Assembly: GCA_947449255.1 (NCBI GenBank)
Contig: CANFQX010000003.1
Location: forward strand, 62,001-126,000
Reading direction: 5' to 3'
Length of the DNA: 64,000 bases
Source: Pseudobdellovibrionaceae bacterium
Lineage (GTDB): Bacteria > Bdellovibrionota > Bdellovibrionia > Bdellovibrionales > Bdellovibrionaceae
Within the stretch, counting starts at the first letter, position 1, and each line of letters starts with the position of its first letter. Of the stretch, positions 41,425-61,000 are shown piece by piece. The translations under genes and the position numbers were made by a program. The notes under the pieces were generated by a model that made no database searches, was not told where the DNA came from, and was given only the letters and a program-made list of their open reading frames with translations.

Positions 41425-41871
41425 ATGAGAAATCCAATAGAAGCTTGGAGAGGTTCAAGAAGCCCTTTTCGCGAGATACAACAACAAATGGATCGACTTA
41501 TGGAAGAGTTTTCAGCATGGCCCGTCGTTGAGCTTCAACCCACTGACGTTATCACTCCACGATGCAATATGTCTGAGGATGCAGGTCATTATTTTTTAAA
41601 TATTGATATGCCCGGAATTGCAAAAGATCAAATCAAAGTAGAGCTGAATAACAATGTGCTTTCTGTCTCTGCAGAAAGAAAAGAAGAGAAAAAGCACGAA
41701 GACGAAAAAAAATACTACTCTGAAATTAGCTTTGGCTCATTTTATCGAGCTATGACTTTGCCATTGCCAGTTGACGAAAAAAAGATTGAAGCCAAATTTG
41801 AAAATGGAGTGCTTCACTTGACTGTTCCAAAAACAGAAACTGGAAAAGCCAAGCAAATTGCCATTCATTGA
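41425..41871 (+). CDS. Hsp20/alpha-crystallin small heat-shock protein
   Basis: A 148-residue ATP-independent holdase. The alpha-crystallin domain spans about residues 45-138 (FLNIDMPGIAKDQIKVELN, then YRAMTLPLPVDEKKIEAKFE and ENGVLHLTVPK). The C-terminal I-x-I oligomerisation motif is present as IAI. AAAGGAG precedes the ATG. It is monocistronic, with a repeat tract and a strong terminator downstream. No CIRCE element or convincing sigma-32 site was found upstream. Confidence 0.94.
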   Translation: MRNPIEAWRGSRSPFREIQQQMDRLMEEFSAWPVVELQPTDVITPRCNMSEDAGHYFLNIDMPGIAKDQIKVELNNNVLSVSAERKEEKKHEDEKKYYSEISFGSFYRAMTLPLPVDEKKIEAKFENGVLHLTVPKTETGKAKQIAIH

Positions 41872-54375: not shown

Positions 54376-54476
54376 GATTTTTAATTTTCCAATTTAAGTT
54401 TTTTTAAGTTGTAGAAGAGCAATTGTATTCAATAGACTTTCGGGTCTGCGCCAGATTTGGCAAAGGAGATAGCCAC

Positions 54477-54716
54477 ATGAGAATCAGCAATATCAAAGAC
54501 ACAATGGAAGAATCGTCAGTTTTCGAAGTGACCGTTTCATCATCAATGATGGACCCCGTAAGTCACAAAAGTTATCACGAAATGTCTGATGTTCCAGTCG
54601 TTGAAAGGGATGCGCTTTCGCAGTTGCATGCCAATCTTGCAGAGCTTGAAGATTTACAGGGAAGATTGTCATTTTTGATGAAAGAAGTTCGTTATTTGAT
54701 GAAGGTGCAAGTCTAA
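54477..54716 (+). CDS. Small hypothetical protein
   Basis: A 79-residue acidic protein with a C-terminal amphipathic helix (LSQLHANLAELEDLQGRLSF) that may dimerise. It resembles no family I know. AAAGGAGA precedes the ATG at 54477, and the upstream in-frame codon at 54423 has no ribosome-binding site. It ends one base from the convergent coiled-coil gene. Confidence 0.65.
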   Translation: MRISNIKDTMEESSVFEVTVSSSMMDPVSHKSYHEMSDVPVVERDALSQLHANLAELEDLQGRLSFLMKEVRYLMKVQV

Positions 54717-56015
54717 CTAGGCCTTCCGGCTGAAGCCCTTATCACTTCCTTTGTCGCCATTAAATATGGGAATATGATAGATCACATAATCTCCATCACG
54801 TTCTCTGGTCATTCCCTCTGTGAGTATACGTTTTTCGAAAGGGAAGTCCTCTCGAAAAGATTGATAGCTGTTTGTACTGACGGATTTGTTCTCTTCTTCA
54901 ATTTTATCTTTAAAAGCCCGTTGCCCAGAGATGGTGGCGCGATCTTTTTCAATGCTCACTTTAATGATGTCTTTTTCGTGTTCAGGCACAAAAGCTTTTA
55001 GGACATAAAAATTTCCATTTTCGCTGAGTTCGCTTCCGCGATTTTCAATCTTATAAAATGGATCTGATTCTCGATTGTGATATTTTTCAGTCGTTTGAAT
55101 GAATTTTTTTTGAACTTCTCTGGTCTGCTTATCATAGCGTTCTTTTTGAATTTGCAGAGACTCCTTATGGGCATCTTCTGTTTTTTGATAGGTAGACTGA
55201 AAATGATCGTTTTGCGTATCTAGGTGGTTTTGATAGGCTTCCTTGTTGTGAGTTAAGCGATTTGAATATTCATTATTTAAATGCTGTTCTTTATCAGTCC
55301 ACTGATTTTTTATTTTTTCGTATCGTTTGGTTCCATTTTGTTCAACATTCTGAATCTTCTTTTCTTGATTTGTTTTCTCTTGCGCTATAACTTTGAGGCC
55401 TTTTTCGTGGAGGCCTTCAAAATCCTTTTCATTGCGAGTACGCAGTTTTTCTTCGCTGACATGGCCTCTTTGGATTTCGGTATCTAAAGATTTCTCGTTT
55501 TGTTCACGCTGTTGGCCCAGTCTTTTTTCACTGAATTGATTCATATCTTTTAGGTCAGTATTGAATTTTTGCTTTGCCTTTTGGATCTCCGAGTTCGATT
55601 GCTCGCGCAGACTGCCGATTTGATTCTGAGCACGTTCTTTTTCTTCATTTATGGTCGCATGAGTTTTTTGCTTTGTTTCGGCAATCCAACGCTCACGCTG
55701 CTCGATGGAATCATTCAGTTTTTCTTCAAAACCTTTTTTCATCGCCGTCGTGCGAGAGTTGTAGGCTTCTTTAATTTTTTGGCTTTTATCATTGGCCAAG
55801 TCTATGTTTTTTCGCTGACTGTCTTGAATGTGATTGATAGCAGCTTCATTGGTTTCCTGAACATTTTCTTTTTTATTTGTATAATAACCTTGGAGCTCAT
55901 TGATTTGGGCTTCGTTTTCTTTAGTGACGGCCTTTTTTTTACGCGTGAAATCGCTCTGGATATCACCGAGTTCTGATTGCTGAGATTTTCGCGTTGAAGC
56001 ATCCACTGAAGACAT
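54717..56015 (-). CDS. Long coiled coil fused to an Hsp20-like alpha-crystallin domain
   Basis: A 432-residue protein. Residues about 1-315 are continuous charged heptad-type coiled coil, rich in Gln/Glu/Lys/Asn, with no hydrophobic membrane segment. The last ~110 residues look like an alpha-crystallin domain: FYVLKAFVPEHEKDIIKVSI followed by EKDRATISGQRAF, then FPFEKRIL and YVIYHIPIFN. Small heat-shock proteins bind unfolding clients, so this is probably a filament- or oligomer-forming chaperone variant. That role is inference. A separate canonical Hsp20 is encoded at 41425. The ATG at 56015 seems the only sensible start. Confidence 0.78.
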   Translation of the reverse strand: MSSVDASTRKSQQSELGDIQSDFTRKKKAVTKENEAQINELQGYYTNKKENVQETNEAAINHIQDSQRKNIDLANDKSQKIKEAYNSRTTAMKKGFEEKLNDSIEQRERWIAETKQKTHATINEEKERAQNQIGSLREQSNSEIQKAKQKFNTDLKDMNQFSEKRLGQQREQNEKSLDTEIQRGHVSEEKLRTRNEKDFEGLHEKGLKVIAQEKTNQEKKIQNVEQNGTKRYEKIKNQWTDKEQHLNNEYSNRLTHNKEAYQNHLDTQNDHFQSTYQKTEDAHKESLQIQKERYDKQTREVQKKFIQTTEKYHNRESDPFYKIENRGSELSENGNFYVLKAFVPEHEKDIIKVSIEKDRATISGQRAFKDKIEEENKSVSTNSYQSFREDFPFEKRILTEGMTRERDGDYVIYHIPIFNGDKGSDKGFSRKA

Positions 56016-56046: not shown

Positions 56047-56412
56047 TTAAGGTTCCGTGCTGTTGGGCTGCGTAATCTGGTCCTTGGCGGGGGATGTTAT
56101 TGCTAAATTGGGATTAGGGCAGTGCGGTTTGAAATTATCAGTCCTGCCGCGGCAGCGCCAAGAAGTGTAGTAAGTGATTTCCTCATCAGGAGCCACTGAG
56201 TAATAGTAGGGATACTGAATATTGTCTAAAGTGCTTTCGATCAGCCTAAAGTCGGGCGGATCAAGAGGCGCCGGGGGTTGGTTTTTATCGAGGGGTGGCG
56301 CGGCGATTTCTTTTTTTGTTAATTTTAATACAAAAACCCTGTACTCGGCTTTTGCGAAGCTGAAAGATTGCAAGGTCATTAGAATTAGTGCCGCCGACAA
56401 AAGTCTCATCAC
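56047..56412 (-). CDS. Small exported hypothetical protein
   Basis: A 121-residue protein with a signal peptide (MMRLLSAALILMTLQSFSFA, cleavage near AKA). The mature part is Pro-rich (APPLDKNQPPAPLDPPDF) with two cysteines near the C-terminus (WRCRGRTDNFKPHC) that could pair. It contains a tyrosine-rich stretch (YPYYYSVAPDEEITYYTSW). No known family. It lies between two other minus-strand small genes. Confidence 0.72.
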   Translation of the reverse strand: MMRLLSAALILMTLQSFSFAKAEYRVFVLKLTKKEIAAPPLDKNQPPAPLDPPDFRLIESTLDNIQYPYYYSVAPDEEITYYTSWRCRGRTDNFKPHCPNPNLAITSPAKDQITQPNSTEP

Positions 56413-56448: not shown

Positions 56449-56772
56449 TTAATGCTCATGCTCGTGATTGGCGCGGACGGTATTTTCAACAATATGAAAG
56501 TAGGCTCTCACTAGGATATGATAGGACTCCACATCAAGGGCTTGCAAATAGGCCATTTTCTCGAAGTAGGACCTTTTTGTGATGAGTTCTGTCATCATAT
56601 CCTGAACCTTTTTCATTTTATCTGGGCTATAGAAGTCTTTGTCATCTGTGACTTCACTTAAAACTTTAGCTATGGATTTGTTGTCAAAGAGAACATGAAT
56701 GCCCATTGCTGAGTGAGAAAGCAAAGATTCCATTCGTTCCATGCTGGATTCTTGTAGATTTGCAAGAGTCAA
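56449..56772 (-). CDS. Small helical protein with His-rich tail
   Basis: A 107-residue helical protein ending ANHEHEH, a possible metal-binding tail. No family was recognised. The start is taken as a TTG at 56772 because GAGGAG lies six bases upstream; the first in-frame ATG is at 56742 without such a site. The leader just upstream contains four AGATCT palindromes. Confidence 0.6.
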   Translation of the reverse strand: MTLANLQESSMERMESLLSHSAMGIHVLFDNKSIAKVLSEVTDDKDFYSPDKMKKVQDMMTELITKRSYFEKMAYLQALDVESYHILVRAYFHIVENTVRANHEHEH

Positions 56773-56788
56773 AAGGGTCTCCTCTGTG

Positions 56789-56827
56789 AGATCTAAGAGA
56801 TCTAAAGTGAGATCTATGGTAAGATCT
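56789..56827. repeat. Four AGATCT palindromes in a gene leader
   Basis: AGATCT occurs at 56789, 56798, 56810 and 56822, with spacings of 9, 12 and 12 bases, each within TAGATCT or GAGATCT. The array lies directly upstream of the minus-strand small gene starting at 56772. Confidence 0.8.
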
Positions 56828-57010
56828 AAAACGCCTTATAATTGGTCAAAATGATTCGTTTGATTATGGTGTGGTTTATTCATCACTCAGGCAAGGGTAA
56901 AAAATAATAAGCATAATAATGACGAGGTCTGTCGTGTGCATTCTTTTATAGTTGTTGTAGAAGCAGAATGTCCAGATACTAGAGAGGCAAATAAAGGAAT
57001 CACAAAAAAT

Positions 57011-57955
57011 ATGGCAAAGGCAAAATTTAAGGCAAGGACATCGGCAAGCTCTAAAACCTCGGCGGCGTCGAGTCTGAAAACCAAGGCAAAGGTCAAGCCA
57101 AAGTCAAAGGCCAAGCCTTTAGCAAAAACAAGGCAATCAGAAGGCAAAGAGCTTATTTTAGTGGACGAAAAAGCAGGTCTTATTTTTGAAAATGAAAATT
57201 CTCTTTTTGGCTATTTTAAACCAACAATCGACATGCTTGAGGAAGAGTACCAATCCTTGCGCTCGGCCGATGATTTTAATGATGAAGAGCAAATTTCAAA
57301 AGAGCACTACATTGAATCCTGCTTAGATGATCCGGATGAGATCTGGCTTGATGACAAAGCCAAAAGTGAGACGCCAGTTCATATTTTTATAAAGGAGATT
57401 GTTGAAGGTGATACGGCCTTTAAATATATCGCCTTAGCCTATGTCACTGTTGAAGATGAATATCCAACTTTCGTTTACCTTCATTTTCCAAGTAAAGACA
57501 GTCGCTTGTGGCAGAATTACCAACGCGGCGAATTGGTTTTTGATCGGGAGTATGAAAAAGCAGCCATCGCGGGAATCGAAGGGGATGCCTTGCTTGAAGG
57601 TGATAGTCTGGCAATCGGCCTTTATCATGCGATGATAAAGGTTCGCAGTGAAAAAGATATTCCGCCGGAGGAATTTAAAAATTTTGCAGACCTGCGTGAT
57701 GAAACCATTGAATCCGCAGATGAAATATGGCGAAAAAATGATCTTGAGGGAAATATTTTAGTCAGTTTCATTAAAGAATTTCCAGATCATGAGGTTAAAG
57801 ATCTCACTTACATAGCTGTGACTCAAGAAGACGAGGGTTCGAATGTTCACTCTTTGCTGTTTTCATTTCCCACCTCGGATAACGCCCTCGTGGATCGTTA
57901 TAGACAAGGGGATAATTTGCAGGCGGAAGAAGTCAGTCATGAATCTTCCCACTAG
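57011..57955 (+). CDS. Protein with duplicated ~90-residue domain and Lys/Ala-rich N-terminus
   Basis: A 314-residue protein. The first ~45 residues are Lys/Ala/Ser repeats of histone-H1-like character (KTKAKVKPKSKAKPLAKTR). Two copies of one domain follow at about residues 100-190 and 225-310. Shared blocks are DPDEIW/SADEIW, IFIKE/SFIKE, YIALAYVTVEDE/YIAVTQEDEG, LHFPSKDS/FSFPTSDN and YQRGE/YRQGD. The DEIW pattern faintly recalls PBECR-type RNase-like domains; this is only a hint. The ATG at 57011 is preferred to an in-frame GTG at 56936. An MFS transporter gene starts 15 bases downstream. Confidence 0.7.
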   Translation: MAKAKFKARTSASSKTSAASSLKTKAKVKPKSKAKPLAKTRQSEGKELILVDEKAGLIFENENSLFGYFKPTIDMLEEEYQSLRSADDFNDEEQISKEHYIESCLDDPDEIWLDDKAKSETPVHIFIKEIVEGDTAFKYIALAYVTVEDEYPTFVYLHFPSKDSRLWQNYQRGELVFDREYEKAAIAGIEGDALLEGDSLAIGLYHAMIKVRSEKDIPPEEFKNFADLRDETIESADEIWRKNDLEGNILVSFIKEFPDHEVKDLTYIAVTQEDEGSNVHSLLFSFPTSDNALVDRYRQGDNLQAEEVSHESSH

Positions 57956-59308: not shown

Positions 59309-61000
59309 ATGGAAAGGCATGGCTTTAGTTTTAGAACGAAAATGTTTCTTTTTGGATGCTTCTTCTCACTGATTGCAGTGGGCGTAGGAGTTATTTCATT
59401 TTATGAATCCAATCGTGCCAAAGAGGCTTACAGCGAAATGGTTTCGATGGATGTTCCCAAGATGAAGCTTGCTTATGAAATGATGTTGAATTATCGCAAA
59501 GTTCGAATCAATGTTCGCACTTTGGGGTTGCCAGGCTTGTCACCAACTGAGGGTGAAGAAGCTGTGAAAGCGGCCCTATCATCTATTGAAGAGTATGAAA
59601 AAGAATCAAGATCCTATGCAGACTTGGGCTTTGAAAATGGACAACAAGAATATTTCGATGCGTCCACTGTAAAGTGGAATGACTTTAAGGGATTGGGCAA
59701 CGAAATAGTGAATTTGTTTAAATCAGGAAAGCCTGAATCTCTTGTTAAGATTCAAGGTCTATTGCTGAAAGAATGTCCTGAAAAAGCAAAAAATTATACA
59801 ACAGCGATGAAGTCACTTTTGGATTATCACGAAGCGACTTTGAAATCAAAACAGGGCTCTGCAAGTGACCTGACTTCTTCTGCTTACGGTATCGTTGTGC
59901 TGGTTATTTTGTCGGGCCTAGTCACCGGACTAGCTGTCGGGTTTATTTTTGCACAGCGCATTTCAACAGCAATCGGACATCTTGCTAAAAACTTAGGTCA
60001 AGGTGCGGATCATGTTTCTCATGCCGCTGAAAAAATTGCCAACTCAGCTCAGGGTTTATCAAAATCAGCAACTCAGCAAGCTTCTTCACTCGAGGAAACA
60101 GTTTCTACAATGGAAGAATTGACAGCGATGGTTCGCCTCAATACTGATAACGCTAAGCAGGCTGCAAGTTTGGCTTCCTCAACTCGCGATATCGCAGTCA
60201 AAGGCGAGCGAGAAATCAAAACTTTGATTGATTCTATCAACAGTATTTCTGCAGATTCTAAGAAAATTGAAGAGATCACCAATGTGATCGATGATATCGC
60301 TTTCCAAACAAATTTGCTGGCTCTGAATGCGGCGGTGGAAGCTGCCCGAGCCGGTGAACAAGGAAAAGGGTTTGCAGTGGTTGCAGAGGCCGTCCGATCA
60401 TTGGCGCAAAGAAGTTCTTTAGCAGCTAAAGATATCGCTGAGTTGATTAAAAACAGCGTTCAGAAAATTGAGCTTGGCAGTAAACAGGCTTCGCAAGGTG
60501 GCGAGGTTCTTGGAGACATCGTGAATTCGGTCAAAAAAGTGGCTGATCTGAATAATGAAATCTCAAATGCAAGCGAAGAGCAAAATACTGGAATCATGCA
60601 AATCAGCCAAGCCATGAATCAATTGGATCAAATCACTCAGTCAAATGCAGCAGCCTCTGAAGAAACGGCGCAATCTGCTGAAAATTTATCAGCGCAATCT
60701 AAGACATTGAGTGTGAGCGTGTCGTCCTTAGAGTCAGTGATTACGGGTGCAAGCGCTCATAATGCACAAGCTAACTTTCATGAAATGACGATGGCTGTGA
60801 GTAAAACAAGCAGACCTGCTCAGAAACCAGTGGCTAGACATACAACCAAGGCTGGGAAGGCTTCGAATGTTGTGGATATGAAGGCTTTTAACAAGCCTGC
60901 TAAAAAAGGATCTGCCGCTGCAGCAAAGGGTTCATCTGTCATCCCATTTGACGAAGATAATGGCGGACAAGGGAAAGTGGGAACAACTGACGGTTTTTAA
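59309..61000 (+). CDS. Methyl-accepting chemotaxis protein
   Basis: A 563-residue receptor. The first transmembrane helix is at about residues 11-30, followed by a four-helix-bundle sensor at about 35-185. The second transmembrane helix ([19 protein letters not shown]) leads with little or no HAMP domain into the signalling coiled coil. The hairpin tip is intact ([20 protein letters not shown], then [16 protein letters not shown]), so it can control CheA/CheW. The C-terminal ~70 residues are a flexible Lys/Ala/Gly tail without a CheR-binding pentapeptide. GAGAGG precedes the ATG. The ligand is unknown. Confidence 0.92.

Follow-up and report, generated by a model that had tools for sequence, protein, structure and literature searches.

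What kind of protein is built when an alpha-crystallin domain (ACD) is carried at the end of a long helical rod, and does it still work as a small heat-shock protein (sHsp)? This question is raised by a gene in a 64,000-nucleotide stretch of a Pseudobdellovibrionaceae genome, which was analysed as a whole and is called the window below. The original prediction described its product as more than 300 residues of uninterrupted charged coiled coil joined to an Hsp20-like domain. The ORF listing gives the gene an exact span of 54717-56015 on the minus strand, and a genome search found it in single copy. Its product joins an ACD to a long helical rod through a linker, as had been proposed, with the following features.

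54717..56015, minus strand: fusion gene, 432 aa, N-terminal hendecad rod plus C-terminal ACD; open reading frame with phylum-wide homologues
55065..56015, minus strand: hendecad helical rod, residues 1-317, with 29 in-phase 11-residue repeats (period 3.67; AlphaFold2 helices) and a predicted break at 173-175
55827..55844, minus strand: N-terminal motif AAINHI at residues 58-63; most class members have it, with a fixed spacing to DPFY
55053..55064, minus strand: linker motif DPFY, residues 318-321 (alignments A1 and A4), in a low-confidence region of the model
54762..55031, minus strand: ACD, beta strands from residue 329 to about 417 (PF00011, PDB profile, Foldseek, AlphaFold2)
54717..54764, minus strand: C-terminal tail of 15 residues (FNGDKGSDKGFSRKA) plus stop, seen on inspection to be without an IXI motif

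Compared with the Pfam HSP20 family (PF00011), the window protein alone scores 18.6-19.0 bits, below the gathering cut-off of 20.8. The same family is matched by 36 of its 38 homologues (E <= 0.01), the best at 5.6e-12, and a profile built from the fusion family aligns with HspA (PDB 6ewn) at E 1.5e-13, covering the whole ACD with no gap in the dimerisation loop. AlphaFold2 predicts a seven-strand sandwich in the C-terminal part, and among the matches listed by Foldseek 50 of 50 are sHsps, both for the ACD model and for the full model. The length of the beta6 dimerisation loop is retained (ungapped to HspA; monomer models only). Both an Hsp20 match among the homologues and a beta-sandwich were therefore found, and the C-terminal domain assigned in the original prediction is borne out. 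By fold and by profile, the fusion belongs to the sHsp superfamily.

Ordinary sHsps assemble via their N-terminal arm and a C-terminal IXI motif. The fusion misses these marks, and the window protein also misses the Pfam cut-off. A rod of 317 residues stands in place of the usual short flexible arm, as the original prediction had noted, and relatives are mostly 375-565 aa long. At the other end, any [ILV]x[ILV] sequence after the ACD was found in just 12 of 90 fusion tails, with none in the window protein, and several of these fusions end at the last ACD strand with no tail at all. In the Bdellovibrio fusion RERDGDYV occupies the beta8-beta9 region, which reads AKFENGVL in the ordinary Hsp20 of the same genome; this replacement should alter the groove normally binding IXI. 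Fusions from other classes (L126, L129, L136, L146) end in a tail of some 45-60 residues in which an FPxxLP-like motif recurs, a motif absent in the class of the window.

The ordinary Hsp20 is encoded in the same window:

41425..41871, plus strand: ordinary Hsp20, 148 aa, outside the fusion gene cluster, with SPFREI near its N-terminus and a C-terminal IAI

It lies 12.8 kb from the fusion, in agreement with the normal Hsp20 predicted about 13 kb away, and was the only PF00011 match returned by the genome search. From the letters, the DPFY motif of the fusion linker could be what remains of the PFRE-type motif in ordinary Hsp20 N-termini.

Residues 1-310 of the rod contain no proline and 36% charged residues, and AlphaFold2 predicts helices at 6-172 and 176-312. 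Fourier analysis of the same residues gave a hydrophobic periodicity of 3.66-3.67 (= 11/3) and nothing at 3.5, with a power of 4.75 at 3.67 versus 0.10 at 3.50. None of 20,000 shuffles was as strong, their maximum being 2.32. The chemoreceptor-like protein 59309-61000, chosen as a control because it was expected to be a heptad protein, peaked at 3.51 in the same test, which therefore tells heptad from hendecad. A heptad coiled coil is ruled out for the rod by this analysis; the rod has the 11/3 periodicity of hendecad coiled coils and not the heptads of intermediate-filament-like proteins. Its 11-residue register is maintained through all 29 repeats, with mainly aliphatic residues at one of 11 positions and aromatic, aliphatic or small residues 7 residues further. 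An ungapped comparison of the rods of 19 members gave an identity of 0.187 at offset 0, about 0.12 at offsets 11, 22 and 33, and 0.07-0.09 at other offsets, 7 and 14 included. Of the uninterrupted charged coiled coil first described, the long charged helix stands; it is better called a hendecad rod, with a break predicted around 173-175. The full model has a low pTM (0.38), which is to be expected when a monomer with a loose linker is modelled; the DPFY region is, from this model, probably flexible. According to PMC11676326, hendecad coiled coils are under-represented, predictors detect them poorly, and they are difficult for AlphaFold.

For a coiled coil the rod has a weak core (strongly hydrophobic residues make up 19%, in a rod rich in K, E, Q and N), so that a lone or membrane-lying amphipathic helix is possible. 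The fusion might in that case be an amphipathic 11-residue-repeat protein of the LEA, apolipoprotein or synuclein type, forming a helix on membranes or protecting dried cells, while the ACD binds clients. The low hydrophobic content agrees with this, as does the 11-residue periodicity, which is typical of such proteins, and the window protein has a Pfam match to Apolipoprotein, although at a non-significant E of 9.3. However, the mainly aliphatic residues at one of 11 positions and a fixed length without net indels fit packed helices better, and we regard an assignment to this type as very improbable.

The length of the rod is regular. In alignments A1 and A4 the D, F and Y of DPFY are invariant. 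Thirty members, from Bdellovibrio and genera close to it, have exactly 260 residues between AAINHI and DPFY; 19 others, representing at least six families at a mean identity of 19%, have exactly 355. Distances of 322 and 311 occur in single members (33 and 44 below 355), 249 in two members (11 below 260) and 257 in one. The step from 355 to 260 is 95, no multiple of 11; length steps in multiples of 11 are suggestive only, because independent length changes are few. The fixed distance between the two motifs argues for a structural constraint on a continuous rod. Short forms with a rod of about 145 residues are found in one genus, which includes B. qaytius, plus a few others, and the full length is thus not always required.

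This regularity bears on the possibility that the fusion is a general stress holdase, in which the N-terminal arm became a long charged helix keeping client complexes soluble and the rod is a solubility spacer without a filament or scaffold role. The intact ACD, with the usual dimerisation-loop length (ungapped to HspA), and the richness of the rod in K, E, Q and N would suit such a protein, but a mere spacer is not expected to hold an exact length at 19% identity, or a strict 11-residue register.

The same regularity recalls the cytoskeleton. Lamins have a long rod of conserved length with a beta-sandwich at the end. In the fusions, too, the rod length is conserved, at 260 or 355 residues between the motifs, with shorter forms also occurring, and the layout of rod plus beta-sandwich is lamin-like. 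The fusion could accordingly be a filament protein of the intermediate-filament or lamin type, a defined-length rod with a C-terminal beta-sandwich head that is purely structural and has no chaperone function. Such a role fits poorly with a rod that is purely hendecad, not mainly heptad, and with the absence of the fusion from several small genomes. Bdellovibrio has an intermediate-filament-like protein, Ccrp, which we take to be Bd2697, expected near 2.6 Mb on the HD100 chromosome. The fusion gene is at 1.20 Mb on a chromosome of HD100 size (G005); that it is the Ccrp gene was therefore judged unlikely, and the two are probably different genes. PMC8938487 describes Ccrp as the sole Bdellovibrio coiled-coil protein of its kind, which also counts against a lamin-type filament made by the fusion, and reports that loss of Ccrp leaves the vibrioid shape unchanged.

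The fusion gene is embedded in a cluster, to which its family is tied more closely than could be seen from the window sequence when the original prediction was made. The neighbours are:

56047..56412, minus strand: 121-aa protein with a signal-peptide-like N-terminus, directly upstream of the fusion with a 31-bp gap; belongs to the cluster within the class and also in family f12
56449..56772, minus strand: 107-aa conserved protein upstream of the fusion, phylum-wide, also present in small genomes without the fusion
54423..54716, plus strand: 97-aa convergent ORF, a conserved neighbour

On the minus strand of the window the order is 107-aa protein, 121-aa protein, fusion. This order is retained across the class with few exceptions and also in f12; in other families the 107-aa gene lies directly before the fusion, touching or overlapping its start. 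The 97-aa ORF, an M10-type metalloprotease and Hsp33 (hslO) are common neighbours of the cluster. We found no Pfam or NCBIfam family for the 121-aa protein, no accepted family for the 107-aa protein and no family for the 97-aa ORF. The 121-aa protein, which has conserved EYRVF, STLDPxQY and WxCxGRT motifs, is probably exported. The 107-aa protein has a conserved C-terminal histidine and may be one of the core proteins of Bdellovibrionota. It does not strictly co-occur with the fusion, since there are small genomes that have it but no fusion. A 339-aa divergent neighbour at 56936-57955 on the plus strand, conserved beside the cluster, has a PBECR2 nuclease-like match (E 2e-14). Between it and the 107-aa gene, a DNA block at 56773-56935 is conserved in the genus (attatcgagac..., acgacaagccccgtcat, cttgcaa) and is, from its sequence, a possible promoter or operator.

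Two observations on the cluster bear on the alternatives set out above. In many genomes the cluster is near hslO, whose product Hsp33 is another holdase, which favours a general stress holdase; a search of the 64-kb window for the CIRCE heat-shock operator found none, which speaks against it, although other heat-shock controls may apply. Taken with the exact length and register of the rod, this leaves the general stress holdase an unlikely reading. In one genome of 2,657,893 bp, the third gene of the cluster is cut down to the rod start with AAVNHI, and the ACD is gone (L167, 6241-6645). As the rod start is kept there without the ACD, the two halves are modular, and the rod start has a role of its own. 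A lamin-type filament gains from this case, but with a purely hendecad rod and the absences from small genomes we still hold it to be improbable.

The fusion is phylum-wide, a distribution far broader than could be seen from the window. Protein identity is 46-55% across most of the genus, with 38% in one member, and 91 of 100 near genomes gave a match to the fusion protein (in a few of them to the ordinary Hsp20 only). With the ACD profile at a threshold of E <= 1e-20, the fusion was detected in 184 of 369 genomes of the phylum; the class accounts for 115 (of its 144 genomes) and the rest of the phylum for 69. The true number outside the class exceeds 69, because the rod-bearing members of family f12 (about 390-410 aa) fall on either side of this threshold, with E-values down to 1.5e-16. 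Most fusions from beyond the class share the 11-residue period. In a tree of ACDs, a branch with a support of 100/100 separates the 43 fusions from 12 ordinary sHsp rows of the phylum, so that a single fusion event before the radiation of the phylum is the simplest reading. Plasmid and viral copies of the fusion were looked for and none was found. A scan of contigs for spread beyond the phylum returned Bdellovibrionota, one contig titled 'bacterium' and one labelled Streptomyces griseus; as it also missed the other classes of the phylum, it is no proof of absence elsewhere. The contig with the Streptomyces label (L123, a MAG contig) carries a fusion of the Bdellovibrionaceae type and is probably a mislabelled bin.

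The original prediction suggested a filamentous or scaffolded holdase. From the sequence this is plausible, and it becomes more specific through the 11-residue periodicity of the rod, its fixed length and the lack of an IXI tail. Our main reading, to which we give a probability of about 0.5, is that the fusion forms an elongated rod or bundle with ACD heads, acting as a scaffold or holdase and replacing the usual sHsp assembly. The product would be a cytoplasmic protein of small-heat-shock type whose hendecad rod substitutes for both builders of the sHsp oligomer, the short arm at the N-terminus and the IXI tail at the C-terminus. Rods might associate side by side in two or more strands, straight or slightly right-handed, giving an elongated assembly of defined length in which one or both ends bear ACD heads. 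These heads could either hold clients independently of ATP or dock partner proteins, and the AAINHI segment would probably also dock a partner, for which the 107-aa protein of the cluster is a candidate. Of a bulk stress holdase and a structural or scaffolding role in which the ACD head serves for docking, the second seems somewhat more likely. Against the rod-bundle model, the cluster pairs cytosolic with exported products, a feature for which the model does not account. More tentatively, the ACD may have been captured once, before the radiation, as the head of a defined-length hendecad rod that builds a scaffold or filament in the cytoplasm. Bdellovibrionota would then have a separate cytoskeletal class, with which the 107-aa and the exported 121-aa proteins of the cluster would cooperate; so extended a scenario is, on balance, unlikely.

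A literature search with little coverage of subscription journals found no paper on a Bdellovibrio Hsp20 coiled-coil protein. The family is a natural, phylum-wide branch of sHsps that dropped the N-terminal arm and the IXI tail and carries a fixed-length hendecad rod, and it therefore offers a direct test of the role of the ACD when another module takes over assembly. These results suggest that an ordinary stress chaperone was turned into a rod-shaped scaffold in these bacteria. The cluster of unnamed proteins may moreover be a core system of Bdellovibrionota, the model predator B. bacteriovorus among them.

Three known systems can be set beside the fusions. With the sHsps (Hsp20/alpha-crystallin, PF00011), such as HspA of Thermosynechococcus (6ewn) and the Xanthomonas protein 3gla, they share the ACD fold and an ungapped profile alignment through the dimerisation loop. 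They differ from ordinary sHsps by a hendecad rod of 317-412 residues in place of the short arm, by the lack of an IXI tail, by their separate ACD clade and, in Bdellovibrio, by the altered beta8-beta9 region. With intermediate-filament-like proteins (lamins, crescentin and Bdellovibrio Ccrp), the likeness lies in a long rod of conserved length, whereas the fusion, known from sequence and models, has hendecads instead of heptads and an ACD instead of an Ig fold. As in the hendecad coiled-coil families of Martinez-Goikoetxea and Lupas (2023), cited in PMC11676326, an 11-residue periodicity extends over hundreds of residues; as opposed to those families, the rod is here fused to an ACD.
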